A stretch of 64,000 nucleotides of DNA from Liolophura sinensis (lineage: Eukaryota; Mollusca; Polyplacophora; Chitonida; Chitonidae), in NCBI RefSeq assembly GCF_032854445.1, contig NC_088295.1:17037385-17101384 (forward strand), given 5' to 3'. Positions within the stretch are counted from its first letter, which is position 1. The number at the start of each line of letters is the position of its first letter. Both the position numbers and the translations under genes were made by a program. Of the stretch, positions 5,701 through 38,200 are shown piece after piece. The notes beneath the pieces are model-generated. The model did not search any database and had not been told where the DNA came from. It was given only the letters and a program-made list of their open reading frames with translations.

Positions 5701-8700
5701 CTCCAAAGAACTTGTATCTGTTGTCTCACAAGGAAGTCATCACACTGTTCAACCACACAGCCACGTTTAGGCGGGAGTCTGACCTGCCAATAACAACGCA
5801 GTATCTGCCCAGTATTGAGTGGCTGGAGGACAAGAGCTACTTGGTGCCAACCAGTCAAAAGACAGAGTACCAAAGGACGGAGGGACTTGCGCCATTTATT
5901 TACACCCACAGTGACTGCGATCCTCCATCTGACAGAGACACCTTTGTGAAGATGCTGATGAAACACATGAAAGTTGACTCCTACGGAAAGTGTATACACA
6001 ACAGGGACTTGCCAGAATTGTTAGTATCTTTATTTCATTGTCTAATCCTTGTCTTCAACAGTTCAACATGTTAACATTTTGTTTTAATGTATGTAATTTG
6101 TGCATGAAAATGTTTAGATTAGGACTCATAAAAAAGTAAAGAATTGTTTCTAGCTCCTGACCATCGCCATTGAAGTTTTGAATCTACTGTAGCTTTCTCT
6201 GGTTTGACTGCAGCTTTATCACAAGGTTTGTCAAGTACCTGCGAAAGTGCAGTAATTCCCCCTGTCCCCAGTTTCTTGCTACCATAAACCTGGCTGTTAT
6301 ATAAGAGTAATGTCACTAAACACAACCCCAAACACCAACCAAATAATTGACATAAAACTAATCTTCACCAATTAAATGCTTTCATAGGCAGAAAAAAAGT
6401 TTGAAAATCTATTTTATCAACTGTACATCTACACATGTACTTCTAAAACAGTGAATATTTTTTCTAGTTTGCAAGATCCCCTTGAAGGAATGGAACATCA
6501 TGAATTCTACAAACTGCAAGCCAAGTATAAGTTTTCCCTCTCCTTTGAAAATGGCATCTGCAATGACTATATCACAGAGAAGGTTTGGAGGCCGTTGATG
6601 GTAGGGTCTGTACCTATCATAATGGGATCGCCCACGGCTCAGGTGAGGTCAGACCCTAAATGTCATGTTCTGTAACTATCCCAATGGGATCACCCAAGGC
6701 TCTGGTGAAGTCAGGCTCCAAATGCTAGGTTCTGTCATAATGGGTGGCCTAATGCTTAGGTGTGTTTAGACCCTAAATGTTTGGTTTTGTACTTTGTCGT
6801 AATGAGTGGCCCAATGCTTAGGTGAGGTCAGCCCCCAAGTGTTAGGTTTTGTACCTGTTATATTGAATGGCCCGATGCTTAGGTGAGGTCAGACCCCAAA
6901 TGTTAGGCTCTGTACCTGTCATAATGGGTGGCCTAATGCTTAGGTGTGTTTAGACCCTAAATGTTTGGTTTTGTACTTTGTCATAATGAGTGGCCCAATT
7001 CTTAGGTGAGGTCAGCCCCAAATGTTTGGTTTTGTACCTGTTATATTGAATGGCCCAATGCTTAGGTGAGGTCAGACCCCAAATGTTAGGCTCTATACCT
7101 GTCATAAAGAGATTACCCAAGGCTGAGGTGAGGTCAGCTCCCAAATATATGGTTTTGTGCATGTCACAGTGGGTGGCCCAGTGCTTAGGTGAGGTCAGAC
7201 CCCAAATGTTTGGTTTTGTACCTGTCATAATGGGGGCCGAATGCTTAGGTGAGGTCAGACCCCAAATGCTTGGTTTTGTACCTGTGATAATGGGTGGCCC
7301 AATGCTTAGGTGAGGTCAGACCCCAAATGCTTGGTTTTGTACCTGTCATAATGGGTGGCGCAATGCTTAGGTGAGGTCAGACAGCAAATGTTTGGTGCTG
7401 TACCTGTTATAATTAATGGGCCAATGCTTAGGTGAGGTCAGACCTCAAAGGTTAGGTTCTGTACCTGTCGTAATGGGATCACTTAAGGCTCAGGTAAGAT
7501 CAGGCCCCAGATGTAAGGTTCTTTACCTGTCACAGTGGGATCACCCATGGCTCAGGTGATGTCAGACCTCAAATAGGTTCTGTACCTATCATCATGGGAT
7601 CATCCATGGCTCAGGTGATGTCAGACCTCAAATAGGTTCTGTACCTGTCATCATGGGATCACCCATGGCTCAGGTGATGTCAGACCTCAAATAGGTTCTG
7701 TACCTATCATCATGGGATCATCCATGGCTCAGGTGATGTCAGACCTCAAATAGGTTCTGTACCTGTCATCATGGGATCATCCATGGCTCAGGTGATGTCA
7801 GACCTCAAATAGGTTCTGTACCTGTCATCATGGGATCATCCATGGCTCAGGTGATGTCAGACCTCAAATAGGTTCTGTACCTGTCATCATGGGATCATCC
7901 ATGGCTCAGGTGATGTCAGACCTCAAATAGGTTCTGTACCTGTCACAGTGGGATCATCCATGGCTCAGGTGATGTCAGACCTCAAATAGGTTCTGTACCT
8001 GTCACAGTGGGATCATCCATGGCTCAGGTGAGGCATCATCCCAAGTGTTAGGCTTTGTGCATATTATAATGGAGTTTGTGAATACTCATATGTTAATTCA
8101 GTGTTCCGTAACTCACTGACATTAGAGCATTGTTTGAAATATGTACTTGAGCTTTTTTTTCAGGAAATTTGTATGAGTACCTTGAAATTTTCCTATTTTC
8201 TACTGTAACTGGTTATAACATTTGTGTGAATGAATAATGCCCATTGGGGGAAATATTCTAGTGGGCAGAAATTGATATACAGTGTAAAAACAAAATCCAA
8301 ACTTTTGGTCACGTACATAAATACATCCCAGATCTTCATGCTGTGAATTATCAACTGAAATTTTCTACATTTATCGGCAGTTAAGATACTTTAAATAATG
8401 AATGACATTTCTTTGCCTCTGGGACCAAGGCAGTTTAAGCTGGGGTGATTTATCAATCAGTTTATATGTAATTGATGTACATCTTTGTTCCTGTAAATGT
8501 AGTTGTGATTCCTAGCTAAATGATGTACATATAACTTTGCAGTTGTACTGAAGTTGGTATGTACATTTGTTTTAACATTCTAGGACTTCCTTCCGGACAA
8601 GCACTCAGCCATATTTCTTCAGGACTTTGACACGTTGGATGAGTTTGTAAAGTTCATGAAGCGCCTGAATGAGGATAATGATGAGTATGAGAAGTACTTA

Positions 8701-13406: not shown

Positions 13407-13693
13407 AACCGTGTTTGACATCTACAAAGATATTTGCACAATCGTGAAATTTTACACACAGTATTTCAGTAATCAAGTCAACACACTGTAGCAAGGATCA
13501 CCCTGTAGATGCAGATGTACTCCAGTGAGTGTGCACAAACGCATTATCGGCCGGATTCTGAAAATTTATGAACAGATTGAAGACGATTTTGACCACATAC
13601 AACCAGACAATGTTATACCATGCTTTTGTATCACACTGAGACAGCGAGCTCACATCGTGTTAATGAGGTGTGTGATCTGATTTTTAGGGAGGA

Positions 13694-13960
13694 CTACCCA
13701 CTCTTCCCGAAGCAGATGTCTAACATCATGATCATTGGACACCATCTAACATGGCGATACACTGCTTGTTTCAACTGGTCCCACAAACTTTCAACGGGAT
13801 TATGATCCAGGGAATTGGCAGACCATTGCATGTCCTCAATGCCTTTGTGTTCAAAGAAGACATTTATAACTCTTGCACTATGTGGACAACTCTTGACGTC
13901 CATAAAAAGAAATCCATTGCCATTTTGAATCTGCTTGTAAAATTTTCAAAATCTGACAAA
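13694..13960 (-). pseudogene. Tc1/mariner transposase C-terminal remnant
   Basis: The minus-strand reading contains VKSCPHSARVINVFFEHKGI, then MQWSANSLDHNPVESLWDQL and KQAVYRHV. This matches the C-terminal DDE region of Tc1-like transposases (xxPHTAR...V..W.SxSPDLNPIExLWdxLkraV). The proline of the usual DLNP core is kept, with H in place of L. Only about 70 residues remain, without the N-terminal DNA-binding domain or the first catalytic Asp, so it cannot be functional. Confidence 0.8.
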
Positions 13961-14135
13961 TAATGCATTTGCTCATGCTCATTGGAGCACATCTGTATCT
14001 CCAGGGCGATCGTTGCTACAATGTGTGGACTAAATTACTGAAATACAGACTACAAAATTTCACAACAATTTGCAAATATCTTGGTAAATGTCAAACAGTT
14101 TCATGGGCAACAAGTCTGGAAGTCCTTTAGGGGAT

Positions 14136-15482: not shown

Positions 15483-16007
15483 CTACATACATATGTAATG
15501 TGCTCCTTTACTGGCATACATGAGGAGAGCACAGTAGTTAGCATCCATGAACATTCCCACCTGTGGACCACAGTTTTTCGCACATAGCGCCAGTACCAGG
15601 TGCATGCCACTTTGGTGGAAATCTGCATGATTTCCCACAAACTTTATGTAAGACTGCATTAACATCCCAATAGGGAACTCGTAAAACTCATTCTTGTCTG
15701 TATCGAGATGGTCCAAAACTGTCAACTCATTTGTTCTTTCCTTTATTATCATCACAATTATTGGTGTAGGCGTGCTCATACAACATATACATGTATGAAG
15801 TGCACATGCACTGCAACATCCCAGAAAACAATGATGAATTCTACTGTCATCTGGATCTTCTGTGTAGCTCGTCCTGGAGTCTCTCAGTATGTGAAAACTA
15901 CCAACCCCTTTAATAATGCCAACAAGTCCCCGAGAGGCGTGTAACCAAATAAAGATCAAAACTTCTCCCAGGTTGTTCAACGGCAGGATTGAACCATCAC
16001 CACACAT
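15483..16007 (-). CDS. Unassigned open reading frame, probably in the NACHT-WD 3' UTR
   Basis: A 174-codon ORF lies about 1 kb downstream of the NACHT-WD stop codon on the same strand. Its composition is plausible (many Cys, Met and His) but no domain or family is recognised. At this base composition an ORF of this length can arise by chance in 64 kb. A possible minus-strand AATAAA at 15742-15747 lies inside it, as expected if this is 3' UTR or flank rather than a separate gene. Confidence 0.15.
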   Translation of the reverse strand: MCGDGSILPLNNLGEVLIFIWLHASRGLVGIIKGVGSFHILRDSRTSYTEDPDDSRIHHCFLGCCSACALHTCICCMSTPTPIIVMIIKERTNELTVLDHLDTDKNEFYEFPIGMLMQSYIKFVGNHADFHQSGMHLVLALCAKNCGPQVGMFMDANYCALLMYASKGAHYICM

Positions 16008-16968
16008 CTCTGATGATTCAAAGACCCGAATGTAAGCAACATGCCCAGAATCTTTCCTAGATCAGACAAAAATGGCTATGTTCAATAACAAAACTTGGTT
16101 TGATGTCACAGCAAGGACAAATGGCAAGGTAACAAATGAGAACCCACTTAATCAGCCTTTAAGAAGGGTCTTCTATAGTTATCTATTTTTCTGGTCAGGT
16201 TTATCACAAGACTGCTAATTCTTAGAAAGCAGATAATGACTGGATATGCTTTGCTCAACAACACTTCTTTTGGTTCAATTATGTTCTGATTTTTGCTTCT
16301 CCCACAACATTTTTCCAAAACAATACAGACATTCACATCAGTAAAACACCTGAAGCTCACATACCTTATGTTTACTAACGAGTCACAAAAGGTAGACAAA
16401 GGGAGTTCTTTAATACAGAGGAGGCTGGATTATCCTCCAGGAATTGATCTTTTCATAAGACCCCTCAGATGTATTTTTGTCATTTTGTCAACCTTTCTGA
16501 GATATAGGACATTTGGCTTAAGTACTTTTAATGGAACTTTAATCAACATATGATGTTGTCACGTCAGGTGGCATTACTTTTAAGACAGGGATTTCCATGT
16601 CATCAGGTTTTCCTTACTTGTTCATAAGTCATTTCTATCATTTTGACAACAATTCAGTTAAGAAACAAGATTTCACATCATATGGACTGTATCCCCAACT
16701 TATTAACAGCCTGGACTTCATTAATCTTTTGTGGTAATTAAGTCTTATCAAAACTTGGTCTTTTACACAACTTTTCAAAAGATACAAAATAATATGTGTA
16801 AGCAGAATAATATCAACGGCCAAGAAAACCAGCACATGCTTATATCATTACAATGGATATATGTATAAACCTTCCATGAAATATGTATCACTACAGACAT
16901 GAAAACATCTATCTACACATCAAAACAGTCAAGGAGTATACTGCAATTAATCAGCAATTGGTAAAATT

Positions 16969-16995
16969 TGAAAAAAAAAAAGAAAAAAAAAAAAC
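16969..16995 (+). repeat. A-rich simple repeat
   Basis: An A-run with scattered G lies just downstream of the NACHT-WD stop codon, within the presumed 3' UTR. Confidence 0.8.
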
Positions 16996-17061
16996 AATTC
17001 ATACGAAACTCATACGTAACAATATATACTGTAAAATATCAACGATCGACACCAGCAATTA

Positions 17062-17211
17062 TCATAAAACACAACAGATTTCAGATTTGCTTTTGTTTTT
17101 TTCTTCCTTTTTTGACTGCTTCCTCTCGATTTTTTTGGTTTTCAGTTTCTTCTCCCTCTTCCTCTCCTGAGCCATGATGGCCGTTTTTACTGGTGCTTTT
17201 ATCGGCGACAC
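17062..17211 (-). CDS. Last exon of the NACHT-WD gene: polybasic tail with CaaX-like box
   Basis: Acceptor TGGACAG at 17218-17212 opens 49 codons and a TGA stop. Nearly half the residues are Lys or Arg (for example QERKREKKLKTKKIERKQ). The protein ends SKSEICCVL: the last four, CCVL, fit a CaaX box, with Leu favouring geranylgeranylation. A polybasic stretch next to a CaaX box is the classic membrane-targeting arrangement of K-Ras-type proteins. I do not recall such a tail in human NWD1 or NWD2. Prenylation is inferred only. Confidence 0.85.
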   Translation of the reverse strand: MSPIKAPVKTAIMAQERKREKKLKTKKIERKQSKKEEKNKSKSEICCVL

Positions 17212-20200
17212 CTGTCCATCAGAATTAATATGAAAGTAATTAATTCACAATGTCAGAACTAGATGGGCGTATGGGGTAATCACACCCCATGTATAAAACC
17301 TGAGGAGGCATGAATCTATTTTGGACAGACCTCTCATATGTTGGTAACAGGAGAAAATACGTTTGCTATTATTGCATATTCATTATTTAAACTGTCTGAT
17401 TATAAATTTTCAGAATATGTAAATGTTAATATAAGCACACAAAAGATAAAAACTACACCCAAAATTACCTGTATAATTTCAGGCATACTTGACACAGAAA
17501 AGCGGGACTCTCTCCTCTTTAACTTCACCTCCTTGCGCTCTGGGAACACTGTGGAAGGGCAGTGTACCAGTGGAGGGTGTGGCTTGAGAGGGAGGGGCAA
17601 ATAGTCACCTGGAACAAACAGCCAATTAAATATCAGCAGTCAGTGCTTCATCACTAAGTCTGATTTATGTTGTACTCAAGAATATTTCATTTATTCTATG
17701 GCGATCAGGATTATGATATGAGGAAACTGGGTAGAGCCTAGGGGGAACCCACAGCCATCCGCAGGTGGCTAGTAGACCTTCCCTCCCTATTATAAACTCA
17801 CCAGCGCACAGTGATATGTGTGCACATATCTTTTCATGTCATATTGCTGAAAATGGATGAGTAGTTTGATAGTCATGTCTGATGGTGTACTAGACAAGTG
17901 GAATCATTCACTATAAACATGGTCCACATTTTTATCACTGCCATTTTTCAGGGGGTGAGCTGTGTCTCCAGGCTCTATATCTGCACTAGAAAAAACTCAC
18001 TGATCTTTCTCAAACTTCATATGCCCACAAACTACAAAAATTAAAATGCAATGTATTTCACCTAATGGAAATTATTCCACACATGGTGTTATATAACACA
18101 ATGTGTCTGCTTTCCATGTGGAATGTTAGAAAGACATCTAATCAGATTTACTTGTAACTGAATAAAGTGGCCGCAGCTGCTACAACCCTGCTTATATCTC
18201 CAAACCTTGCTTACCTGCCAGACTATTGACCATCTGTATGCTGACCTGGCTCTGAGACTTCACCTCAGCAGCTGGCGTATTGTGAAGACACATCAGTGGA
18301 ACATGACAATTGTTTGACAGGTGAACTACAATGTTTGAGGCATTAAAAGTCATGGCTATGTCCTCTACATCAGCATGCATGTCAAACAGAGTCAGCTGGC
18401 TGCCATGAAGGAGACTCCAAACTCGCAATGTCCCATCCCAGGAACCTGTCAATCAAACACACAACACCCCATCAGTAATTCTACATTCATAGTCAACCCA
18501 AAGAGATAAACCCAAGACAATTAAACAATATCAATTTTTCAGGTCTACAAAAACAGTTATCAATATTACAACTGTTTCTGTAGGATACTACAATTGCTTT
18601 TGGGCTGCTACATATTTAAGTCGTTTTGTTACAATAGATACACAATTAGTACACTAACTTTTGACACCTTTTATTCAAGCAATGCCCTGTGGTGAGTTAT
18701 TCAATTACAATGGAGTTTTGAATGAATGTTACTTCTCCTCTCAAGTTATTATAGTTATAATACTAGAAAAAACCTGCCATCACTGTTTGTACAATGTCCG
18801 TAATTTCTTGCCTCTTTTAACCAGTGATTTCTGAATTCACTGGATCTGCAAGGTCATTCTGCTGGCCTCTTATGGAAACACGAGGAAAAAATAAACTTTT
18901 TGAGTTAAAATGGTTGATTGGTGTTTAACACTGTAAGATTTTTTTTACTTACCTGTAATATGATGGCGAACAAGTTTACAAGTGGAGGAAATCGGAGCGT
19001 CCCATGTAAACCACACACCTTCGCCTTCTACCTGACAAACCTCGTGAACGTGTTAAAATTGTTAAACTTGTTGTAATGTGTACCCGTACCTGACACCAGA
19101 ATACTCCCATCTGTTGTGACCCTCAGGACACTGATCACCCCCTTGTGACCCTCCAGCTGATGCTCCACTGTTCCTGTTCCCAGGTTCCAGATGATGATGC
19201 TGCGGTCACGTGACCCAGAGATAATGTTACAACTGTTGTGAGTGGTCGTCACACAATTGACAGACCCCTGGTGGCCAACCAAAACCTGCAGGAAATATTG
19301 GGTGTCACTTAAAATATTAGCAGTTCAAGTTTACGGGGTAAAGGCAGCACATAGTTGAAGCAGAAATCTTAAAAAAAAATTTATAATCGAAGTTCATAAA
19401 ACATTTTTTGGGAATTTGTTTTTCAACCTCATAATACAGGATTTAATACCACATAATATGCTTTTGTCAAACAAATGTGTACAAGATATAACAATCGCAG
19501 TCAGCTTCAGCAGATTAACAAATCAAATGCAGTGTATAGTTAAAGCTAACTGGATCTGTGCTTTCTCTGTCTGGTCTTGTTTTGTGGTTTTGAGGATTTC
19601 ATGCGAGTAGAATGCTACTTGACAAGGTGGTGCACACGTAGCTATTCCTTCAGAGAATGAAGTCATCCACTGAACCACTACTTATCCCCTCCCCCCCTCC
19701 TTTCACAAGGAATGAGCAAGAAATAATATTGAGCTATGTTTTTGGAAAACATGCAAAGAAATTAAAGAATAACAACTTTCAGTAACTTTGATACAATTGC
19801 TTTTTGACTGTATAAAACTGTTTGAAAGACAGCAGGATCTGAGTTTGTGATATAATATTACACAAACAGACTAAAGAACTCATGCACCTACAAAATTAAT
19901 ACAACCATTGTCGTGTGGATGTATGTTAGACAAAGTAGTCTCCCTTTGATTGAACCAATTCCTTCATGACAACGTGCATATCATCACCCACTTACCTGTG
20001 TCAGTTTGCCAGTTCTGGTTTCCCACACTTTCAGGGACATGTCATCTGAGCCCGTCACCACATGTTCCGAGTCTTCCGTACATGCCACACAAGTGATGTT
20101 CCCTTTATGAGATATTGTCTGTATCACATTGCTGTCCTCCAGTTTCCAGATCTTAAGGCTGAAATGTCCAAGATAAATCATTTATTTTGTATTAGGTTCA

Positions 20201-23200
20201 CTAAGAGCTGTAATTGGTGTTCAAATAATACCACTATTATATAAATATGTATATATGAATGCTTGTGGGTTTAACATCGTACTTAACCGGGCAGAGCCCG
20301 TGGGAGACCAACGACCGTCCGCAGGTTGCTGGCAGACCTCCCCAAGTATGGCCGGAGAGCAAGCCAGCATGACTTGGTCTTGAACTCACAGCGACCTCAT
20401 TGGTGGGAGGCTCCTGGGTCATTACGATACGCTAGCATGCTAACCAAATGAGTCACGGAGGCCCCTCTCGACTTTGAGAAGGACTCTCTAGCCATTAGGC
20501 CACAGAAGCAGTCACACCATTATATAATATGTATGTAAATGTACATAACTGGTCAGTACAAGCAAGTGCAGCAAACATATGAAACTGTACTAAAAGCAAT
20601 AGTAGTAGAAACCACTATATTTTGTAGCCTACTGTATGTACCACACATAATAATAAAACAACTTTCAAAACAGGATAAACAGCTACAGTTCAAAAATTGA
20701 TTATATTTGACTGAAGTTAGTCACACTTTTGCTAACTTCTCACAGACATGAATACAAACCTGCTAGAGCCTGCCAAAGAGAAGACGTATTCACTGCTATG
20801 TGACAGTGCCATGATGGGGATTGGGTCCGCGTATGAAAATAGAGTCTGGCCTGTATCCACCATCCACAGCTTGAGTTTTTCACTCGCATCCACAGACATC
20901 ACCTTCAAGCTGTCGCTCAGAACATGCACACTCTTGATGGGGCCCTGATGACACTGCCAATAAGACCATTCAGATATTCTTGGCAAATCTAGCCAGTTAC
21001 TGTGACATTACATTTTCTGATGCCATATTCGTCAAATGTCAACCATTCTTCAATAAGCACATGGTGAAATACTATTTTTCTGGCTTTCTATCACTCATGT
21101 GATATTTTATTATGGACAACCTTTCCCTAAAGTCATACACATACTACATGTAGGTATGCATTCAGCCAATCCAGTTCAACTAAATTTCTCAACATAAATA
21201 CACGCATGTATGTTCTAAATGTCTAGTTCATTATCTTCTCTAAGTTTTTGCTTTTGACATGCATATTTTCATAAGTCCACTGGACGCTGATATGAAAAAA
21301 AAGTATATGTATGTTTGAAGTCCCTACCAACACAGGTAAAAATGATTAGCTTTTAATAATTAAATTACACTGACTCCAGGTAAAAGTGATCATGCCAAGG
21401 CCAGTCATTTGGTCATTGATCTGAGCATGTGTACTGCTCCATATTAATATCCACAAAAGAGTAATACGGAATGACCCACACAATGTAATACTTCCCTTTA
21501 TACAAGGTAACAAATGCTACTAACCTGGTAGTCTGTGACGATGGTCCCCATGGAGATAGACCACACCTTGATGGTGTTATCAGCAGAACCAGACAAGATG
21601 TAAGCCTCCTCCTCGGCCAAGGTGAGACAGGTAATAGCATTGGTGTGGCCAGAAAGGTTTTCCATGAAAACACTCAAATCCAAATTCCACAACTTTAATA
21701 TTCCATCTTTGCTACCTGATGAGAAAATATCATCACCATCATCATCAATCCACTAGCAAAACCATCTATCCAAACTTATGCCAAATCATCCTTTTTACAT
21801 TAAGTAAAGGGAAATGTCTCACAAAAACATTTGAATTTCAACAACAATTTTAGCAATGTTACATTGCAAGGTGGCCAGGCTTTCATTAATACATGAAAAA
21901 AGTTTTTGAACACATCCGTGTACACTGTTGATGTCTAATACACACCTGTAACAGCCAGTTTGCCTGTACTGTTTATGGCCACAGCTGTCACTGGGCTGGG
22001 ATGACTGTCATCCACAACTTCTCGCGTGGCTTCCTTGTACATGTTCCACACACAAACCTGTGTCTAAAAGTCATGGAGAAAAGACACGTACAAGGGTTGA
22101 TATTTCAATCAGAATTTCCTGAAGCATGTTCACAAAATATTAATTTTCGTTGCACACACATTTCCCCTGTAAGATATCATCCTACCTTCCAAACAAACCT
22201 TAAGGATTAGTTCTTACTTACTCAGAATTAGACACCCTGTATGTACTGACTAACTGATAAAATGACATTTTTAAAAATGGGCAAATAAATCTAATAAGAA
22301 TGACACCCAAAATCGACTGTTAATGAGGTTGGTTTTAAGCATATTTTATGCCCATGTTAAGTATTAATCTCCTCAAAAATACCTCATAAACCTTCACTCT
22401 TTATGAGTTGTCAGAGCTTCACCGTTTAGCCAAGTGGTTGACACTCAACCAAAGTGACCATCTTCATCCATTTGCTTGCCACCGATGTATCACATACATG
22501 TACATATATACAGGCTTGACTTACATAGGTTATAATGCTTGAAGTTTGTAGACACTTAGAGCATTGTTCGTGATAAAAACAAATATATGTAACACTATCT
22601 TTTCTATAAGCTCATGCTTTATTTCCCACATTTGTCAGGTTTCAGCTTTACACAGGTTAGTCAATTTACCCAAAGTTCATGTTGAAATCAAGAGCAAGCA
22701 GGAAAATTTGACTCTTGGGTGTGTGAGTTTGCTTATACCGTAAAAATACTCTTCAAAAATCAGAAATGTTATCACCGAAGCTGTTGGGAATGTTGGGAAA
22801 TGCCGAAACAAAGATCAAATTCATCACCCAAACAGAGCCTATGGTCTGTATCAGGCAGACAGTTCGAGATTGGTCAGGGCAGTAACTTCTGGATTAGAAT
22901 TCATTATGGGAACAAAACTCTTAGAATCACACAAATAAGTAACCTTGTGATGTTTGAAATTCAAAAATATGATAAAGCGTTTTTCCACTACATGTACCAT
23001 CTGATAATAAATTCTCCACCATGCAAAAATAAATTCTCCGCCATGTGATAATAAATTCTCTGTCATGTGATAATAAATTCTCCGCCATGTGATAATAAAT
23101 TCTCCACCATGTGATAATAAATTCTCTGCCATGTGATAATAAATTCTCCACCATGTGATAATAAATTCTCTGCCATGTGATAATAAATTCTCCACCATGT

Positions 23201-26200
23201 GATAATAAATTCTCCGTCATGTGATAATAAATTCCCCGTCATGTGATAATAAATTCTCCGTCATGTGATAATAAATTCTCCGTCATGTGATAATAAATTC
23301 TCCGCCATGTGATAATAAATTCTCCACCATGTGATAATAAATTCTCTGCCATGTGATAATAAATTCTATAACATCTGTCTGAGAGTATATGACAAATCTT
23401 ATATCATCTTATTTTCGCAGCAAAAAGACAGACAGATGGACAGACGGACAGACACACATACAGATGGATGGACAGTCAGTTATCAGACGTCTCACCCGTG
23501 AAGCTGAGAAGATCATGTTTTGGTCCCGAGAGATTCTGACAGAAATAACACAAGACTTGTGAATGCCCATGAAGGTGCGCAGCAGCTCTGTAGTACAGAG
23601 GTTATAGATGTACACTCCTCCATTGTCACAGCCCAAGACAGCATGGACGCAGTCCTGACCCACAGCTAAGCTTGATACCTGATAGGTTTGAGAAACAAGT
23701 TCAAATGTAATTCAGATAGGCAGTTCATTTCGAGAACTCTAAATGTAGCCCTCTTCATGAACTTGTAACTACCATGGTGACATAATTCCTGTAGTGATGG
23801 TACCTATGGTGATTACATGCATTTACCGTCAAAAGGGCGGTGTGCAATTAAGCCGACCTCATACAAAGTATACATTTTCCACTTATTGCCCACTCTACTC
23901 ATATCTTCCATTGTTTGGTTTCACACTCAAGATGGAAAAATACTGAATAAGGAACCACCCATATAGAAATTTCTCCTCAATCAAAGACAACAAATTTTCT
24001 TGCTGCAGATTTACAAATATAAAGATATGTTTAAAACTTAGTTTACTTTGATCTGACCTGATTGTCTAGCTTGCATGATGAAAACAATTATTTATTGTTC
24101 ACAATTTTCTTGGTTTATACATGTTAGTATTTATTTCATAATTAATAAGACAGTGGCCATTTTCATGGGAGAGGGAAACCCATCATTGGGTTCTTTCCTC
24201 CCCTATAAGCATTATCCCTAAATATGACCTTGAACTCACCTTGCCCTTGTGACCTTTCAGCTGATGCACCTCTGTACCAGTTGTGAATGAGAACACATGT
24301 ACTGAGCCATCTTCACAACCTAAATGTTCAAATAATCAGTTTAGTACACTTGTATTCATTTAACTAAATTTGGAATTTGAAATAAACAATATGATTCTGA
24401 ACAATTTTCAGTTAACACTGTGGTCTGCTTGTGAATGTATCCACACTTATTGGATGGATTCATCAACATGGGTGTTTACATCTTTGGTCCCTAATTTTGC
24501 TTATCTGTGCTGAACAATAACTACAAGCCAAAAATGCTTTAAAATCATAGGAAATATTGGCACACATGTTAACGTTGGATTAACAGGGTCCAGCTTTGAG
24601 GAGAGTATCATACCACTTGACATGTGTGTAATAAAGCTACGGCTGAAGCAGAGGCCAGGAGAAAATTCGACAACACAGGCCCTCTTACAATGAAGGAAAG
24701 TTTCTCTTACTCTACATGAAAGTCCAAACAGTTGCCAAAAAGACAGATGAAAAATTCTACTTTGTCCTCATTAATTTGGTAAAAAAAAGTTTTTTTTTTA
24801 TCTTAACATGATTCAATAAACTTATCTTTCTCAACATTATTTAACTAAGTAAAACACATTTACTACTTTACCACTATCAGGAGAAATGCACTGATATATT
24901 ACCTATGAGGAGAAATGTGTTGTCTATAGAGAGAGTCATACAGAGTATAGGGCTGGTGATGTCTTGACTGATACAGTTTAGAACCGTCATGTCCTCCACA
25001 TACCACAGAATCATACGCTTGTCAAACGATGCTGAATAAACAAAAAGAAACATCTCATTAACAAACTCAAAAACTTCCACTTCATTAAATTTCTTTAGAA
25101 ATTTTACAACCATAAATTATAAAAAAAAACATAAAGTTATAAATTTTTCAGTGAACTGTTCACATGTTTAAGCAACATTCTAGCCAAGTAATCATAAACT
25201 CTTAAACAATTTAATTACCTGTTTTAAAGTGAGATTACCTGTGATAAGTATGGTCCCTGTACTGTTGAACGTGACTGCTGTGACCGTGCTGGTGTGTTCC
25301 CTCAGTCTGTGGCTGACCTTACCCTCCAGAAGATTGTACACCAGCACACTCTTATCCCTGGAGCCACTCACTAGGACTTTGCCATCCTGGGATAGCGTCA
25401 TACACATAACAGCACTGTCATGTTCTCTACAACAGTCACAGCAGTAACACAACAGTCTGGTTTGACTTGTTATTTAATGTAGACTGTAAACTTTTACAAA
25501 GTTACAGAGACCAGTAAGGATTGAACCTTTCACTGACTGTGTATCATAACCACTTTACAAAGGCCAGTAAGGATCGAACCTTTCACTGATTGTGTATCAT
25601 AACCACTTTACAGAGGCCAGTAAGGATCGAACCTTTCACTGATTGTGTATCATAACCACTTTACAGAGGCCAGTAAGGATTGAACCTTTCACTGATTGTG
25701 TATCATAACCACTTTACAGAGGCCAGTAAGCATTGAACCTTTCACTGATTGTGTATCATAACCACTTTACAGAGGCCAGTAAGAATTGAACCTTTCACTG
25801 ATTGTGTATCATAACCACTTTACAGAGGCCAGTAAGAATTGAACCTTTCACTGATTATGTATCATAACCACTTTAGCCACCTCAATTCATCCCAATTCAA
25901 CCAACATTTTGAATGTTCAACATAACACATTTTTAACATAAATATCAATACTAAAAGGGATGAAGGTCTTAAATGTGGGTAGTAACAGTGAGTCAGACAG
26001 TATGAGTTATTCATGAAATTGCAGCACATTTCTTCAAATATTATACTAGAAATAAGACTGAACTAAATTTTGGAAAAACTCGGACATCCAGCAGTTTAGT
26101 AGCAAGTTAGCCAAATGAAATCATTCTAAATGCTTTTAAAACATGATTATAATATGAGCCAACTTATACATGTAATCTTGCCCAGATGGCACTGCTGCAT

Positions 26201-29200
26201 ATACATGTGCTCATTGTTAGTCACTAGCGCTAAAGGATTGTAAGCCTATTAACTAAGCCAGCTACCACTGAACACAGAAACAGCAGAATCCAAAGATGAA
26301 TCCAAGCTTTCAACACAGAACAGGCATATCCAATGGCCAGAACAGGTAGAGCCAATGATCAAACATGCAGAGCTAATGATCAAACATGCAGAGCTAATGA
26401 TCAAACATGCAGAGCTAATGATCAAACATGCAGAGCCAATGATCAAACATGCAGAGCTAATGATCAAACATGCAGAGCCAATGATCAAACATGCAGAGCT
26501 AATGATCAGAATAAGCAGAGTATATGACAACATTAAACCTTTGATTTTCAAAAGCTTAGCTACACCAGTGACTGAGATATGACACAAGCAATCTTTCTCC
26601 AAGCCAGCAGAAGTCTGCACATTCAAATGGATACACGGTTTGATGACAACATCTGACATCTCTATATTCAGCTGAAAATTTCTTAGTTTATGTGGACCAC
26701 ACTATGGACAGACCTAATGACTTCCACACAGTCTCCGGTGAACACGTCCCACAAGCGGATTGTCCCGTCATCAGCACCACTAAACAAACGCTTGTGATTG
26801 GAAGATAATGTCAGGCAGAGAACCACTCCAGCATGGCCTAAAAGCAGAGCAAGTAAAATCATAGTTACAGGAAATTTTATCATTAGGGAGTTTTATACAT
26901 CCAAATATATTGCTTCATATCACATGAACAAAATTACAAAATGAGTATACGGTATCTCTTTAAGAGAACATGCAGACAACATTATTGCTTCACTAGTTAA
27001 TAATAACATAATAATGTAAATAAATTAATACTAATAACATGTATTCTCAAAAAATCACTTGAAGGAGCAGAAAAGTTAAAACACATGACACTATAGGCTG
27101 AAAAGAGCAAATTTTTTTCTATCTGGTGGTGCATAATTTTGCGATTTTTCGTCGTCATACATGTAAAGCCTGAAAACGGTCCATCGCGTCGTCCTTCTTT
27201 AACACCCTGTAATTTATGCTGGGGGTTTGTTGCCTCTCAGCCAATGAGAGTCGTTAAAACTGCTGGCTTGTTTGTGTAAACTTGGAACCTACGTCCAAAA
27301 TTCCGCTGTACTGTTCGCTACCTTCTGGGAAGAAGAGTTCTATCTAAATGGAGTCGCCCACAGCTGATTTGGGTGCTGACTTTATTTATAATTTATCAAC
27401 TTGAGATACATATTACAATTTTTTTTATGGCATGCACCTGCAAGGAAATGCTTACTCTTTTCAACGGTATTTGTTTGGTATTTAAATTTTCTTCTCCTTT
27501 AAAGTAGAAATGTCTTCCCACCTGAGAAAGTCGTCACTAGTTTTCTGGAGGGCACATGGTACATGCTGATCACATTTTTCTCTGTGGCACATAGAATATG
27601 CTGGCTGTTCTGCGTGGGTAAGACTTTGGTGATGCCATCTGACACCTCAAGGGAGGTAATCAGGGGATTCCTGGGGTCTGGCAGCCATGGTGTGAGTGGT
27701 ACAATCAATGGGAGAGAATACGAGTCACACCACTGCATGCATTCTGTCACCAAGCTGTCGATGGTTTGGGGATAAAACTCTACAGCAAACAAACAATTAT
27801 TCCTCCTAATAATCAACAAAACCTGAATCATTTAAGCATTCACTGCCTACAAGTTTGCATGTTTACATAAATATGTAGCTCACTGGCTGCCAATCCATGT
27901 CAGGAGATTTTTCAGGCTTCAGGAGAGGTGCCAGGGTTTTCTTCCCTAAAAACCTTACCACTACGATAAAAGTGAAATTTCTCAAATACATGGTTGAACA
28001 TGAATAATGTGCAAATTGTGCAAATGTGCAAAATGAATAATTACATTAATAAAAGAATGAAAGGTGAATATATTAACTCTATGTAGTATGTTTCACATTA
28101 CTGTAGTTACCTTGGGGACAGCCTACATGTACTATTTGTTTATCCTTGTCCCTCAGTTGGCAGAGCTACCCTATTAGTTCAATCACCATGTGCAGTGGGC
28201 CTTTCTCATTTACTCAGGGGAGCTGCCCTATTAGTTCATTAGCCAGGCGCAGTGGGTCCTTACTATTCATCTAGCCGAATCGCCCTTTTAGTTCATTAGC
28301 CAGCTCTAGTTGGCTCTTACCTTTCAGTGAGCCAAGCCGCCCTATTAAGTCATCAGCCCTATTACATGCAGTGGGCTCTTACCATTCAGTCAACAGAGTC
28401 GTCCTATTAGTTTATTTTAATATTCAGCAGAAATGTTAGTGGAAAAATTAGTTCACTAGACACGTGGGGTGGGTCCTTCCCTTTCAGCTGGCGGAGTGGT
28501 CCTATTAGTTCACTAGACATGTGGACTGGGTCCTTACCTTTCAGGTGGAGGAGTCGCCCTATTAGTTCACCAGCCATATGGAGTGGGTCCTTACCTTTCA
28601 GCTGGAGGAGTCGCCCTATTAGTTCACCAGCCATATGGAGTGGGTCCTTACTTTTCAGCTGGAGGAGTGGCCCTAATAGTTCACCAGACATGTGGAGTTG
28701 GTCCTTACCTTTCAGCTGGAGGAGTGGCCCTAATAGTTCACTAGCCATGTGGACTGGATCCTTACCTTTCAGGTGGAGGAGTGGCAATAATAGTTCACCA
28801 GCCGTCTGGGGTGGGCCCTTACCTTTCAGCTGGCTGAGTCGCTCTATTAGTCCACAAAGCCATGTGGATTGAATCCTTACCTTTCAGCTGGAGGAGTGGC
28901 CCTAATAGTTCACCAGCCATGTGGAGTTGGCCCTAACCTTTCAGCTGGCTGAGTCGCTCTATTTGTCCACAAAGCCATGTGGACTGGATCCTTACTTTTC
29001 TGCTGGAGGAGTGGCCCTAATAGTTCACCAGCCATATGGAGTGGGTCCTTACCTTTCAGCTGGAGGAGTGGCCCTAATAGTTTACCAGCCATGTGGAGTG
29101 GGTCCTTACCTTTCAGCTGGTGGAGTGGCTCTAATAGTTCACTAGCCATGTGGACTGGATCCTTACCTTTCAGCTGGTGGAGTGGCCCTAATAGTTCACC

Positions 29201-32200
29201 AGCCATATGGAGTGGGTCTTTACCTTTCAGCCGGACGTGTCGCCCTATTAGTTTACTAGACACATGGACTGAATCCTTACCTTTCAGGTGGAGGAGTTGC
29301 CCTAATAGTTTACCAGCCATATGGAGTGGGTCCTTACCTTTCAGCTGGAGAAGTGGCCCTAATAGTTCACCAGCCATGTGGAGTGGGTCCTTACCTTTCA
29401 GGTGGAGGAGTGGCCCTAATAGTTTACCAGCCATGTGGAGTGGGGCCTTACCTTTCAGCTGGAGAAGTGGCCCTATTAGTTCAATAGCCATGTAGGGTGG
29501 GTCCTTACCTTTCAGCTGGCGGAGTCTCCCTATTAGTTCATTAGCCAGCTGCAGTGGGTCTTCGGTCAACACCTCTATGGACAGTTTAATCGAGGACAAG
29601 ACCAGGTTGATCTCTGCGTCCAGCAGCAGCCTGTGTGAGTTCTCCAGGTTAGTCAGCAGAGTCTTGATGGAAGTGGAGTGAGCTGTGGCTAACAGGTACT
29701 CAAACGAGCAGTAGGCATACTCCCGAAAACTGTCTTGTTCACCTGACAGAAAACAGCATATTCTAGTATAAATGATTGTGGTTGTAATTCTACTTTGGCA
29801 TTATTGCAACCAATTTGATCTGAGAACTTAACACATGTGAGTACTTCTTACCTATATATCTAGACCCTATGAACAGTGAGGGTGGTAGAATCTGCAAATT
29901 CATCTATATATGTATGCATGAGAGTATTGTACATGTACATACACATCTATGTGAATCATGTTAATTCATATTACAATGGATCTAATCCTAAAATGGAAAC
30001 AGAATCCTTGCTGATTGGTTGCTTTGTGAGATAGGTCAAATTAGATTAAGCTGAATTTTAGGTATGCATCCAGATGTGTCTAATCTCGTTAGATTAGACG
30101 CTTTAACCCCTGATGTCATATCTCCGCTGCCAACCAATCATTTTCGATTCTGCATCCCTTTAAGATCAAATCTGACAAAAATCTGAATGAATGAGTGGTT
30201 GTGGCTTCATACCACTTTGCCAACAATGCAGCCATATTGTGACTGTAAAGGGTTTTGGTGCGACAATGAGGAATCCAAAATCAAACAACAATAGAAATTC
30301 GAAAAAAGCTGCTAAAATAACACAGTTGATAATGTCAGTTAAGAGACAAAAGTGTGTGCTGTTTTACTAGTAATACTACCTGCATGGAGGAGATGATGCC
30401 ACATCTCATTGATGCGCCTCATGTTGTACCTGGTCTCGCTGTACAACAATGGCTGTGGTGAGAGCAACCGGTTTCCACAGTGAATACGCTGAACATTACG
30501 GTCTTTGTCCACTAATGGTTTGTTGTCAATCCAGCTCTCCAGAAAGAGCTCCGCGATCTGTTTGTGCGACTCTCTGGCCATCCTAGGCTGCTGATGGTAC
30601 AGGTATCTTTGTCTCACCACACTGTTTATACTATGATGACACCAACAATACACCTGCTTGTTGTCCAGGAAACAAGGCATCAAGAGCACATCTGGCACAG
30701 GGAAAAGATTTTTCCACATAGAAAATGGCCACAAAAACAAATGTTAGTTGTCTTGCTTGTAATACATTCATGCAGAGAAAAGTTTTAAAAACATTTAATT
30801 TGTTAATAAAAAAACAGTTAAACATTTGGCAAGTATGTCATTAATACAGGTATATGTACCAATGCAACAGCAAATCTGCACTAATTCAATTCCATTTGGT
30901 TTGATTATTATTTAATGCGGTGTTCAAGAATTGGGGAACACCAACATGTCTGAGGTACACTACCAACCTCAGGCAAGTTACAATGGGCAAAGGGGTTAGT
31001 ACACAAGCATGGCGCAATGAGGCAGGAGCCTCCAATCAATGCGGTCTCTGTGAGTTCAAGACCAGCTCACGCTGGCTTCCTCTTCGGCTGCATGTTGGAA
31101 GGTCTGTCAGCAACCTGCAGATGGTTGTGGGTTTCTCCTGGGCTCTGTCCGCTTTCCTCCTACCATAATGCTGGCCACCATCGGATAAGTGAAATATTCT
31201 TGAGTACGGCACAAAACATCACTCAAAAAAAAAAAATAAATAAATAAGTTAGGCAAGTTAGGGATCAACATTCCCACATGACCTACTTGCATAGACCATG
31301 TACACACCATGCTGTTGAAAGATGTATGTCGACAAATATAAAACTACGAAAACAGCCACATGACTGTCATCAACAGCTCATTGTCACCGGGCCCTACAGA
31401 GACTGAAATATACCAACTCCCATCTGAACTGGTAGCTTGTGAAAGGGAAGTGTCTTTGACCACTCGACCTCAGGCTGCTCTCATCAACTGATTTATATTC
31501 ACTGATATTTTCATGTAAGCTTGGCACAATGGACAAAAGCTGAAATTTAGAATTCTTAAGTACAAAGCAGGCATTTGATTATAAACAATGCATTCTTACT
31601 TAGGTCTGTTTTAATTGCTATCCAAAGTGAAACAGGAAAGCGTAGAATGGGAGGTAACTCTTGGGGGTATGCCGCCAAAAGAATGTCGTTGCTAATTGAC
31701 AGGAGATCAAGCAACTCCATCTCTGTCAAGCCAGCTCTTGCTAGAGTTAAGTATCTAGCAATCTGGGAAACAAATATCACACCATGCCTTTTTTCCATCA
31801 CTTCAAACAGTTTCATCACAGACTCTTGGAAAGATTCTTCTGTACACAAGCACTTGTCATAGATACTGTCCCAGGACATACACTGTTTTGCCTGATACGC
31901 CAGCAATGCTAGTCTTCTCATACACTGGCTTGTCATGGAGTTCTTCAGCACATTCTCTTGTTCAGGTGCCAATGTTCTTTTGTCTTTAGCTAGCATGCCA
32001 AGGAAACACGACAGCAACTGCTCTTTAGTTTTTTTTTTAACAACAACGACGGTGTGCTTGTTATTTTGCACTGTTCTATTTGGTGATGATTTTGCAGAAG
32101 TCTCTGTAAATGAGACGAGAATATGGACTCTAGGAGGAAGACGGCATGCCAGCCAAGAGTACCCCTCCTCTAGCCCACCATCCCCATGCACTGCCGTCAG

Positions 32201-35200
32201 ACCATCCAGGATAATAACTAGCTGACGTGACAACTGTGACAAACACTGCAACAGGTTCTGATAGGACGCGCTCAACTGGTCCTTGTCATGTGACAGGAAG
32301 TCTACATCCACGCCTAGCAGGGAGAAGATCTGCTGGGACACACTCTGCAGGTGACACTGCATGGCCATGGGCCTAACAGAATCTAGGAAACGAGCAACAA
32401 CAATAACATCCTTCCCCAGAGTCTCGGGAATAAGTCGCCAGGCACAGTGCGCCAGTAGGCTAGACTTGCCACTAGACTCTGGTCCATACATGACAACAGC
32501 TTTGTGATCAACGCACGCGCCTGCAGTAAGCGCCTTCCTCAGATCCTCTAGCTCGCACTCAAAGCCATCGGAGACAAAGGCAGTCCCCAGTCTGACGCAG
32601 TGGTAGAGGTGGGGCAGAGCCTCCCAAGATACTTGCTCCTTTAAACCCTCATTCAGGTCTCGTGGGGGGTAACACATCAAGCTGGAGGGGGTCGGGGAAA
32701 ACTTAGCAGCCTGCTCTATCAACAGTTTTAACTTTGTAATAACAGCTGCATTAAAGTCATCCAAGTAATCATAATGACTATCCAAAAAATGGGGCACCAA
32801 GCCCTCAGCCGACCAGGGAATGGTAAACGTGTGCTTGTTCTTGTCATTGAACTTCGCAGACACAAACTCCCTCATATTCCTAATGCCTTTCTGACCCTCT
32901 AGATTTAGTTCTCCATCCTTTTCGATGTCAGTAAAGATTTCTGCACATGCATCACTTGGCTCTAGACCTGTGGAATCAAAATAAGATAACGAAGGTCATT
33001 TCCTTTTATTCCACTTTAGCAAAATAAACTGTTAGACATTCATAGGGCATTTATTTGTAAGCCTTAAAGTAAGTCCACATTTCTAATAACACACATTCAG
33101 GAAAATCGTCCATGTTACATAATATTACACCCATACTACATTAACTTAACCCAAGCCTTGATCCAATAACAGTTTGGACAAATGAGTCTTCACAATGAGA
33201 TGTGTTAAAAAATGTCAGGCCGTATACGTATTTTCAGGTCTGCATTTGTGTGAGTCAACTCACACCAGCAATGTCAACTGGCATAACAGTAGTTACAAGT
33301 TACTACCCAAAGAATGATGGAGATATGGTTGAGGAAATCCAACAGTTCATGTAATTCCAATGATCATTTTTGTTTCAAAACTGCTAAAATACAAGATATA
33401 ATTACCTTCCATCTTTCTCATAATACAGACACATCCTCGGACTGATTTCTCCAGTGCCTTTTGAAGCTCCTGTTCAATTCCTACAAAACATCAGTGTGAT
33501 CCTTTGCTTGTGCTTAGATTGAGAACGAACAAAGTTAAATGTAACTGACCATTTTATAAATTAATAATTTAATGCTTTCTAAGCCAATACATGTCTATAT
33601 ATTTACATAGGACACACAAGTACATGTACACAGTCATGCCACAAGCAGAGCCAGACTCTTAACTGTAGTACTGTAACTACAGCAGATTTGTAGTGCTTAT
33701 ATTAGCAGCAGCTAGAGGGAAGCTCACTATAACTCAGTTGGTAGAGCAATACACTTGGAATGAGGAGATCCAAGTTCAAATCACTAATGTGACAAGAGTA
33801 AATCCTTCAACCATTAAAAAAAATGATCCACAGTAGTAAAGAGGGACAAAGGAAGGAGAATCTAGTTACCTGAGAGGAAGAACCTGTCCTGTTTGAGGTG
33901 ATGTACCTGGTTAATCAACCCCTCCCTGAAGGCCTCTCGTGCCCCATGCTGTAACAGCTCTAGCAGCTGGGTATAGATTTCCCGCCAGTCAGACACTTCA
34001 CAGTCACGCACAGCCTGCAATTCAGGGTCTCTGGAAAAAAAAAGATGAACAGAAAACGTCTTGTCAGGGGCTCCTCATAACTCCTCAGTTTTTGCTTTGG
34101 ACATAGTACATGTATGTATTGTCATTTATTTATCTGATTCGTGTTTCACGCCGTGCTCAAGAATATTTTTTATGCGACGGCGGCCAGCATTATGGCGAGA
34201 GGAAACCAAGCAGAACCCAGGAGAAACCCACGACCATCTGCAGGTTGCTGGCTGACCTTCCCAGAGAAGGCCAGGATGGGTAAGATATATCCATAAAACA
34301 CAGAGCTGGAAAAGTGCTTTAATGCATCATGCCTAATGATGTAACCGAGTTTGAAAATAGCATAACAGGTGATTGCAATGATAAAAAACCATTTTTGTTG
34401 AATCAAAAGAAGTACATGTATACTTGAAACGAGCTATTAATATATGCCAAATATATAGCAGGCGCCGCTTATAAATGTAAATAGGCTCTATGAAATGCAA
34501 TGAGTAGGCCCCTATAAAGTGCCCTTCTCCTTCCAATAAAGCACACTTCTCCTTCCAATACATGTTGTCTTCCTCTCCGGCCGTACGTGGAAATGTCTGC
34601 AGCAACCTGCGGATGGTCATGGGTTTCCCCCCGGTTTCCACCCACCATTATGCTGGCCGTCGTCGTATAAGTGAAATATTCTTGAGTATGGCGTAAAACA
34701 CCAATCAAATAAATAAATAAATAAATCCTTCCAATAAAGTGCACTTCTTATACTTCTCCTTCCAACAAAGTGCACTTCTCCTTCCAATAGAACAAACACA
34801 GAATGAATGCACCCTAGGAAGATTACCACCAGGATACAAAAAGCCCAAATAACAAAATTTCATAAATGTCTCTGATTTTGTTGGCAGCATAGTTATGTAC
34901 TTTGGATTATGTACAATATTTGTTCTATACCTTTTGCATATACAGTATACGATGTTTGAGGAGAACCTTTCCCACCTGATGTTATTTGAGCCTATTAAAA
35001 AGATGTGTAGTACGTAGTTCATGCCGGCGTTTACGATGACCTTTGTGGGAAGCTGCTAACTGCTGCATTGCTGTGACTCTGGTTACCATTACACAGGAAA
35101 GACACCCATTTCCACACTCAAAAATTTTTCAATTACACGAAGGTGGTAAATTTTATAGGTTTTCTATATTAATACTTTACCTGCTATTGACATGCTTGAA

Positions 35201-38200
35201 TCGTTGAGAGATTGGGACCAGTTTGTACACAGGAGGGACAGCATTTTCATCCTTCTTGTACCAGTTATCCAGCAGCTTCACATCTGATGACAAAAGTGCA
35301 AAGACAAATAAAGGCATCAGTACTTCACTTTTTCCCTTAAAAATCTCAAAATACTGTAAGATTTAGCCTTTCGAAAGTCACGATATTGACTTGTGTTGTC
35401 ATGTGAAACAATCTATCGGTCAGCTTAATTTTGTTTGTTTTGATGAACAACAAGCTCATAAGCTTGGGAACCAATGCTTGCCTTTGCCTCCCTCAAAAGC
35501 CTCACTGCGGATGTGAACAAACTCAGTTTCCTCCAGGTATGTGGGCAATGGTGGTTTTCCATACTTGTCACCAAGTAAACACTGCAACATGAAAATGGTC
35601 ACACCGTTATGTATAATCTTGAAGGCAAAGGGGGAAGGTCAAAATACTGTAATTCTTCAACCTTTTCGCACATGAAAGAGCAACTTTCAGAGCAATTTAC
35701 GGACATTTTAACTGATTTTGGAGACAAACTATATTAGTTGAGATGTCAAATTTCACAGTATAATTTTATCTGTCTACACAACATATGCCGTCAAAATATG
35801 CTTGAATAAACACTTTCAAACATGTCGAAAGGTTGAAGAATTACAATAGTTCAGTTTAGAACATAAAAAGTCCATAATAGAACAAAACTTTGTCAAAAAA
35901 AGAGGCGAAAAACCGTTACTTGTCATGTCAAAGCCCTGTACCCAGTATCAATTCAATATATGTACATACATGTAAACCATTAAAATAAAAACTCCTTGGA
36001 CAAGAATAATTTAAGTTTACAACAGATACCAGTTTCGATTTTATACAATTAACCACTATGAAAATTTTGCGAAAAAAAAAAAAAACAGACAGAGCCACAG
36101 ACAGACAGGGAGTGAGTGCTTGAGGTTTTAACGTCGTACTGAACAATTTTTCAGTCACATGACAACGAAGGAGTCCTTAGAGTGTATGCAATGTGCCTCC
36201 TTGTTGCAAGATGGATTTCCACCACTCTTTTCTCTAGTGCTGTTTCAATGAAGGCAAGTAAGCGGCCCACCCGAGCCATTATGCTGATACGGGTCAACCA
36301 GTTTACGGTTTTAGGCATGACCCGACCCGGGATTGACCCTGGATCTATCGCCCCCACCCACCACTGCAAGGACATATGTATATGAGGAGAAAATTTGATA
36401 GAACAGGACTTTAGTTTTGTATCTTAACTGTTTCCATACAGTTACAGGACAAATTGTAAGAAAATATTTTGACATCAACAGTCACATTCAAAGCGTACAT
36501 GTAGCTTGCTACTCAAAGCCATACTGACCAGGAAGAATGGTCCAACAGAGATTTGAGATGATTCTTGCAATTCTGACAAGTGCTGCTCAAAAACATAGCC
36601 ATCAAGGACATGGTCAAGGTCACTGCCCTGGTGGACGTCCACTAACTGGAGGTCCAGACCATAGTGCAGGCAGCACAGGTGGAGTTCAGGCAAGGCCTGT
36701 GACCATAAAGTTTGTCTCTCCAACTCAAAATCTGCAAACAGAATATTTAAGTATATTATTTATTTATTTATTTATTTGTATTTAAAACACTAAAACTAGA
36801 TTCCTTCTCTGATAAAACAAACATTTTAATAGCTGTGCCGCCCCACCAAAAAAATTACATTTTTGGCTTTCTGATCGTACTTGTTTTACTCACTAAATAC
36901 TTGGAGCATTTCATACAAATAGATACACCTATTAACTTTATGGCGGCAATTAGGAACTTGTTTTACTCAAAGACATGTGTGGAATCCTCATACCTTTGGA
37001 ACATGTGAATACTGAGAGTGAAGGAACATGGGGCACAATGGTAAAGCACAACTGTGAGTCAAACTACGAGTTGACAGTTAGCTGATCCATCAGTGCAGAT
37101 TTAAACTTGGGCACAATGGTAGAGCACAACTGTGAGTCAAACTACGAGTTGACAGTTAGCTGATCCATCAGTGCAGATTTAAAGTTGGGGCACACTGGTA
37201 GAGCACAACTGTGAGTCAAACTACGAGTTGACAGTTAGCTGATCCATCAGTGCAGATTTAAATTTGGGGCACAATGGTAGAGCACAACTGTGAGTCAAAC
37301 TACGAGTTGACAGTTAGCTGATCCATCAGTGCAGATTTAAACTTGGAGCACACTGGTAGAGCACAACTGTGAGTCAAACTACGAGTTGACAGTTAGCTGA
37401 TCAATCAGTGCAGATTTAAACTTGGGGCACAATGGCAGAGCACAACTGTGAGTCAAACTACGAGTTGACAGTTAGCTGATCCATCAGTGCAGATTTAAAC
37501 TTGGAGCACAATGGTAGAGCACAACTGTGAGTCAAACTACGAGTTGACAGTTAGCTGATCCATCAGTGCAGATTTAAACTTGGGGCACACTGGTAGAGCA
37601 CAACTGTGAGTCAAACTACGAGTTGACAGTTAGCTGATCCATCAGTGCAGACTTAAAGTTGGGGCACACTGGTAGAGCACAACTGTGAGTCAAACTACGA
37701 GTTGACAGTTAGCTGATCCATCAGTGCAGATTTAAACTTGGGGCACAATGGTAGAGCACAACTGTGAGTCAAACTACGAGTTGACAGTTAGCTGATCCAT
37801 CAGTGCAGATTTAAACTATGACTGGCCTAAGGTACAAGGTTGACTTGTTCCACTCCCAATGTACACACATGTACATTTGTCCAATCAAAGCCATAATGGA
37901 AATAATTATTGTCAGGTCATGATTATGATAAGAGTTCAACTCAAGCCTGGATATGCTTGAGTCTGTATTACGCAGATCTATTGATCCTGTGATCCTTGAC
38001 ATCACTGGGCTTGTTAATTGATTGTCATCATTTCAATCACGGATGGGTCAATGTTGTTAAAACACCTTTCCACTAGTCCTTATAGTACAGCCTTTGTGAC
38101 ACAGACAGTTACTAATCTATACATGAACCAAGGAAACACATCAATGAGAGCTACATGCATGGGCCAGGCATACAAACTACTCTATTTCTTCTAATTTTTG

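Follow-up and report, generated by a model that had tools for sequence, protein, structure and literature searches.

Does a ladder of in-frame splice donors in a sensor-type gene serve to vary the length of its protein, or can such a ladder arise with no such use? The question is raised by a gene of the chiton Liolophura sinensis that lies in a window of 64,000 nucleotides (contig NC_088295.1 of assembly GCF_032854445.1, positions 17,037,385 to 17,101,384), where the end of a coding exon, together with the donor that follows it, is repeated in tandem through most of the next intron. A preliminary description of this DNA offered two alternatives, a built-in length switch or a set of decoy donors that the spliceosome has to ignore. 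Our analysis favors the decoys: the array is, with high probability, a near-neutral intronic minisatellite (a "mirage") that began as a tandem duplication spanning the exon/intron boundary and that leaves the first donor in use. The length switch is not supported, as judged from the junction in the annotated protein, nine homologues, a search of 8000 candidate proteins and the lack of coding constraint on the repeated units.

Structure of the donor array and its host gene

The host is an NWD1/qui-1-like gene on the minus strand. An 18-exon model of it contains no in-frame stop, and its translation shows, from end to end, 100% identity with the NCBI entry "protein qui-1-like [Liolophura sinensis]" (P0001, 1673 residues). 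The gene was already described as belonging to the NACHT-WD type, and the domain content agrees with this: the Pfam families HTH_NWD1 (45.7 bits, cut-off 27) and WD40 (54.5 bits, cut-off 27) both score above their cut-offs, and the NACHT match (22.4) lies under its cut-off of 26.7, so that the order typical of NWD1/qui-1-like proteins, a NACHT domain and NWD1 winged helix ahead of WD40 repeats, is present with a subthreshold NACHT part.

Each unit of the array combines the final ~51 nt of exon 29742-29509 with the first ~6 bases of the intron, giving a period of 57 nt, and the boundary GT is found in every one of units U1 to U18 (18/18); the two structural marks of a mirage, tandem units crossing an exon-intron boundary and splice signals in many of them, are both present. 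The 57-nt repeat that had been reported was recovered by Tandem Repeats Finder (TRF; 28449-29560, period 57, 19.5 copies, 84% matches, 0% indels) and by alignment of the units, and the "about ten" donors in register proved to be exactly ten, all in one phase, at 29508, 29451, 29394, 29337, 29280, 29223, 29166, 29109, 29052 and 28995. The array is longer than had been claimed, with decayed units reaching ~28150, a total of ~24 intronic units after the exonic unit U0, and it fills about four-fifths of its 1.7-kb intron. It was also correctly predicted that any of the ten donors keeps the phase into exon 27779-27522: the acceptor before 27779 is phase-matched to them, and the minus-strand frame is free of stops from 29800 to 28910, covering nine units. 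On the plus strand, too, this stretch contains an open frame, of 180 codons. Beyond the ten donors, two steps of 58 nt, at 28937 and 28822, mark 1-nt insertions, after which nine unit starts (28937 to 28480) no longer share the phase, two being in phase 1 and seven in phase 2, and the last of these, at 28480, has GG in place of GT.

Units U1 to U18 are alike and match the exon tail at 37 to 44 of 51 nt. At eight of the ten in-phase donors the seven bases ahead of the donor are the same, and differences between the true exon and the units lie ~20 bases farther upstream. U19 (31/51) and U20 (27/51), compared here by identity to the exon, match less well and have lost the boundary GT; U21 to U24 are of uneven length, yet 38 to 39 of their 51 nt are identical to the exon. 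In a search of this one assembly, which gives a lower bound, no second genomic copy of the array was found, and both genome matches fall inside the array itself. The features are collected in Table 1.

Table 1. Coordinates of the array-bearing genes, the arrays and their parts (positions in the window, except for the two rows from genome sample stretches L003 and L006)
Feature	Position	Strand	Basis
NWD1/qui-1-like gene, modelled part, 18 exons, 1394 residues; first and last P0001 exons outside the model	19996..36731	-	stop-free frame, P0001 identity, Pfam
Coding exon that seeds the NWD array, last residues EDPLQLANELIGRLRQLK	29509..29742	-	splice sites, phase, identity with P0001
Exonic unit U0	29509..29565	-	alignment with intronic units
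Intronic array, ~24 units, each with a donor-like GTAAGG start followed by copied exon tail; 3' end approximate, decayed	28150..29508	-	TRF, unit alignment
Ten one-phase donors, 57-nt spacing; any choice preserves the frame into exon 27779-27522	28995..29508	-	positions, phase, U1 snRNA pairing
Nine out-of-phase unit starts after 1-nt insertions; last without GT	28480..28937	-	positions, alignment, U1 snRNA pairing
Next coding exon; acceptor of the array-bearing intron	27522..27779	-	splice model, P0001
FUT10-like exon ending GGCTCAG/GTGAGG, seeds second array	6468..6642	+	Pfam Glyco_transf_10 E 1.2e-15; gap-free homologue join
Second boundary-spanning array, 24 donor-like sites, 55- to 62-nt steps	6643..8033	+	TRF rows, site list
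Probable array of exon tail plus donor, 98-nt unit	L003 3020-5811	-	by eye
Probable array of exon tail plus donor, 25-nt unit	L006 7997-8096	-	by eye

Some further observations concern the host gene and the assembly. A GC donor (AAAG/GCAAGC) at 35481 on the minus strand follows exon 35581-35482 and agrees with P0001. A 53-bp array at 25502-25875 (7 copies, 97% matches) ends ~75 nt ahead of the acceptor of exon 25426-25239, and no copied exon sequence was noticed inside it. Across the window, Rfam gave no match at gathering score. The assembly counts 609,464,459 bases in 632 contigs, in line with the published 609.5 Mb and 632 scaffolds (PMC11068029), and its species name, given as L. japonica, was later corrected to L. 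sinensis (PMC12441733).

Donor choice and the origin of the array

The annotated protein joins the two exons as EDPLQLANELIGRLRQLK-EFYPQ, which corresponds to donor 29508 with no added residue. Nine homologues, from Solemya, Pecten, Argopecten, Ylistrum, Ptychodera, Owenia, Polistes, Dreissena and Trichonephila, were aligned over the junction; a unit-sized insertion is absent from all nine, two of which are one residue longer. When a query for the long form was scored across the repeat against 8000 candidates, a capped number, it matched P0001 only, through its single exonic copy of the 19-residue repeat. As protein clusters are formed at 90% identity, an annotated form with 19 more residues would be expected in the cluster of P0001, and that cluster holds one sequence. 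Products with added units were accordingly found neither in P0001 nor in the nine homologues nor among the scored candidates, all at the protein level. It is plausible that the second or third donor is used at a low level, and the frame would hold for nine steps.

The units carry no mark of protein constraint, either in the synonymous share of their variants or at third codon positions. Among 25 distinct variants from the consensus in U1 to U9, 4 are synonymous and 21 are not, against a neutral expectation of 30.5% synonymous. Over U1 to U18, variability at third codon positions (0.093) is below that at first and second positions (0.167), the opposite of what protein constraint would leave, and a third-position value as low as this occurs in 6.4% of shuffled-column runs. 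Of the residues of the family motif, Q879 and L880 are lost in all nine in-frame units and R887 in eight (in seven of them to proline); D876 is retained in eight and L884 in all nine. From the tenth unit onward, frame-breaking insertions are tolerated. An open frame of this length appeared in 33% or 50% of selection-free simulations, depending on the model.

Tested for pairing with the 5' end of the U1 small nuclear RNA (snRNA), eight of the ten in-phase donors reach -10.0, the weaker two being 29223 (-6.8) and 28995 (-5.0), and 14 of the 22 listed sites of the array equal the first donor (-10.0); across the gene model, the values of the 18 donors lie between -4.5 and -13.2. By chance, 1.2 kb of one strand would hold ~0.46 GT sites that match the first donor, a rate based on 49 of 7975 GT sites in the window with the array's own sites counted in. 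The abundance of such donors in the array is not due to chance.

These observations can be explained by the following course of events: (i) a tandem duplication would have carried the last ~51 nt of the exon and the first ~6 nt of the intron into the intron, and because this seed included the donor, each unit opens with a functional-looking donor; (ii) unequal exchange or slippage would have expanded the array to ~24 units and homogenized it in part; (iii) the exon would remain bounded by its own acceptor and first donor, the spliceosome, facing about twenty near-equal donors, picking the first, as the annotated product suggests; and (iv) the whole array would be removed with the intron. Since the first donor would still close the exon, the mRNA would be unchanged and the array free to grow. 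The multiple-of-three period and the open frame across nine units can likewise be put down to a seed of coding sequence with few near-stop codons, with no need of selection.

Against this stand several observations that make "neutral" possibly too simple a word for an array that we infer to be close to neutral. In the NWD array, the donor 9-mer is less variable than the rest of the unit (0.048 versus 0.160, P 0.033), although elsewhere the same comparison is unclear (a further array in sampled stretch L003, P 0.155) or negative (a second array in the window, in a FUT10-like gene, P 0.44). The GT is intact in 67 of 67 units of these three arrays (18 NWD, 23 FUT and 26 L003), which random offsets equal in 0.18% of trials; this count is subject to ascertainment, as it was the donor motif that drew attention to the arrays and the pattern used to list the FUT sites contains GT, and it omits the NWD units from U19 on (U19 and U20 being without GT) and one 143-nt interval of L003. 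If real, retention of the GT would have a simple explanation: unequal exchange can bring any unit into first place, where it has to splice. In the human ABCA7 intron 18 repeat, moreover, one unit can be retained, at a level independent of array length, and skipping of the next exon increases with a longer array (PMC5954066), and tandem repeats at human exon-intron boundaries can change splicing (PMC2812944).

What other readings would these data allow? Regulated use of several in-phase donors, adding 19-residue units between the NACHT/winged-helix part and the propeller, would make sense of the ten in-phase donors, eight of them at the pairing strength of the first, of the frame open across nine units and of the less variable donor columns; we nevertheless regard it as very unlikely, given that the annotated protein and nine homologues lack an insertion, that the units are without coding constraint and carry proline for R887 in seven of nine, that the repeat is absent from the scored database proteins and that comparable arrays elsewhere are not built on multiples of three. 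An effect on splicing that leaves the exon unchanged, in which many decoys for the U1 snRNA slow splicing and promote intron retention or skipping of a neighboring exon, is an unlikely alternative: fourteen sites that equal the first donor, the ABCA7 relation between array length and exon skipping and the ascertainment-biased retention of GT speak for it, and against it are the absence of any sign of regulated splicing in the present data and the reports that amphioxus mirages leave regular splicing undisturbed (PMC3087553, PMC3902484).

Many units read ...CTCCTCCAG/CTGAAAG/GTAAGG, so that each might be taken for a cryptic micro-exon (acceptor, 7 nt, donor) and the array for a nursery of introns or a recursive splicing track, and intron gain from mirages has indeed been proposed (PMC3087553). 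The pseudo-acceptors, however, score from -8.4 to 2.8, compared with 0.8 to 12.7 for 23 modelled acceptors of two genes (leave-one-out), and stay under the 90th percentile (5.2) of 1039 AG sites; 6 of the 16 listed lack the AG, and just 50 nt separate a donor from the next pseudo-acceptor, all of which renders this reading highly improbable. Tandem arrays are prone to assembly error and the HiFi coverage is 14x (PMC11068029), but reads with a mean of 8,347 bp (PMC11068029) against a 1.4-kb array, units that can be told apart (84% matches) and the recurrence of arrays of the same build leave an artefact with a negligible probability. A boundary-derived minisatellite remains our explanation, and the case shows that an in-frame donor ladder, however spectacular, can be a by-product of minisatellite origin.

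A second array in the window and probable further cases in the genome

A second array of the same build lies in the window, in a FUT10-like gene at 2782-9102 on the plus strand. It comprises 24 donor-like sites including the true donor, the last at 8028, and the join of exon 6468-6642 to 8584-9102 (GSPTAQ/DFLPDKHS) aligns without gaps to nine homologues. No L. sinensis fucosyltransferase is among the best 120 of 743 matches, and the junction therefore rests on the homologues. One matched entry, a predicted fucosyltransferase of Batillaria attramentaria (P0121, 672 residues), contains an internal second copy of part of itself, either a real duplication or a gene-model error. The NWD and FUT10-like genes may be old neighbors: in Solemya their homologues have consecutive locus numbers (ScPMuIL_004146 and _004147), and the contigs listed for the two genes have the same length in each of Pecten, Argopecten, Ylistrum, Owenia and Ptychodera.

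Further arrays were sought in a 230-kb genome sample, consisting of 20 stretches of 10 kb on one contig (C1) and then one on each of three others (C2, C3 and C4). Arrays were accepted at a period of at least 20 and at least 3.5 copies, overlaps being merged, and were marked when AGGTRAG occurred in a number of at least half of the units. The first 20 stretches yielded 41 arrays, 3 of which reach the mark (in L003, L004 and L006); none of the five arrays in the later three stretches does, and with the motif reversed no array does. Four of 419 permuted motifs also reach three sample arrays, all four overlapping the donor consensus. When the nine arrays of the window are included, AGGTRAG marks 5 of 50, a figure matched by none of the 419 permuted motifs; two of the window arrays were known before the motif was tested, and the sample-only figure is the fairer one.

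Inspection by eye shows that the arrays of L003 (98 bp) and L006 (25 bp) start within an open frame, the end of which is repeated in the units, and both are probable cases. The 55-bp array of L004, with the donor motif 6 times in 9.3 units, has no clear exon at its edge. For the exon frame of L003, Pfam gives nothing at E 0.1 and PDB only a hit at the level of chance (4u49, E 0.75); that of L006 has a SHIPPO match below the cut-off (E 0.021) and none in PDB. Candidate acceptor-side arrays in L011 and L012 were rejected by eye, as they stop some 40 to 50 nt short of exon-like frames and exclude them. Two arrays of L011 are possibly boundary derived, their units holding a donor-like CTGGTAAG (1-513) and an acceptor-like CTGTTCACAG (3369-4232), respectively.

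Two probable cases in 230 kb scale to about five thousand in 609 Mb (Poisson range, ~600 to 19,000), which is arithmetic on two counts and not a survey, and boundary-spanning donor arrays may be unexpectedly frequent in the chiton genome. Only one of four arrays has a unit length divisible by three (57, as opposed to 55 to 62, 98 and 25 nt), the level expected by chance; given that the other units are not multiples of three, 57 = 3 x 19 looks accidental. All of this might be drawn together in one tentative reading, which we hold to be rather doubtful: donor-spanning minisatellites would occur throughout the chiton genome, in what may be thousands of introns, with the donor preferentially captured and its GT kept in nearly every unit as any unit may come to be the first through unequal exchange, and in the NWD gene the multiple-of-three period would allow later donors, used at a low level, to add 19-residue steps to the linker of a sensor protein, a raw and as yet unselected source of length variants. 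If the sampled frequency holds, chitons provide many natural experiments on the choice of one among twenty near-equal donors and on intron change.

Comparison with known boundary-spanning repeats

Arrays of this kind have already been described, as the mirages of amphioxus and as the human ABCA7 and CBS repeats. Amphioxus mirages are known from Adh3, the globins BflGb6 and BflGb9, troponin C and PGBD5, with units of 10 to 72 bp in Adh3, 150 to 160 bp in the globins and 60 and 108 bp in PGBD5 (PMC3087553, PMC3902484). Like the chiton array, they are minisatellite-like, span an exon-intron boundary and carry splice signals in their units. The chiton array differs in phylum and in size, with ~24 units compared with 3 to 6 in BflGb6, and it involves only the donor side, with ten units that hold the frame, whereas BflGb6 repeats an acceptor boundary. 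No mollusc case was recognized among the literature listings examined, and the present case extends boundary-spanning mirages beyond lancelets.

The ABCA7 intron 18 variable-number tandem repeat (VNTR) resembles the NWD array in having ~24 units in the reference, each opening with the GT of the exon's donor (PMC5954066). Its unit, on the other hand, is 25 bp long, so that a retained unit shifts the frame, and the repeat is intronic from the GT on, with no copied exon tail; it is furthermore polymorphic (12 to about 427 units) and disease linked, whereas the chiton array is known from one assembly. In the 31-bp CBS VNTR (c.1444_1467+7), present in 16 to 21 repeats, 24 exon and 7 intron bases make up a unit that crosses the exon/intron boundary as in the chiton, with the difference that 31 is not a multiple of three (PMC2630376). 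In human segmental duplicates, internal tandem repeats at exon-intron boundaries, minisatellites likewise, have been associated with new introns and with alternative transcripts (PMC2812944), in contrast to the annotated chiton product, which shows an ordinary intron and the first donor. Set among these systems, the chiton array is, by its sequence organization, a mirage in structure, with a striking but probably accidental reading-frame property.

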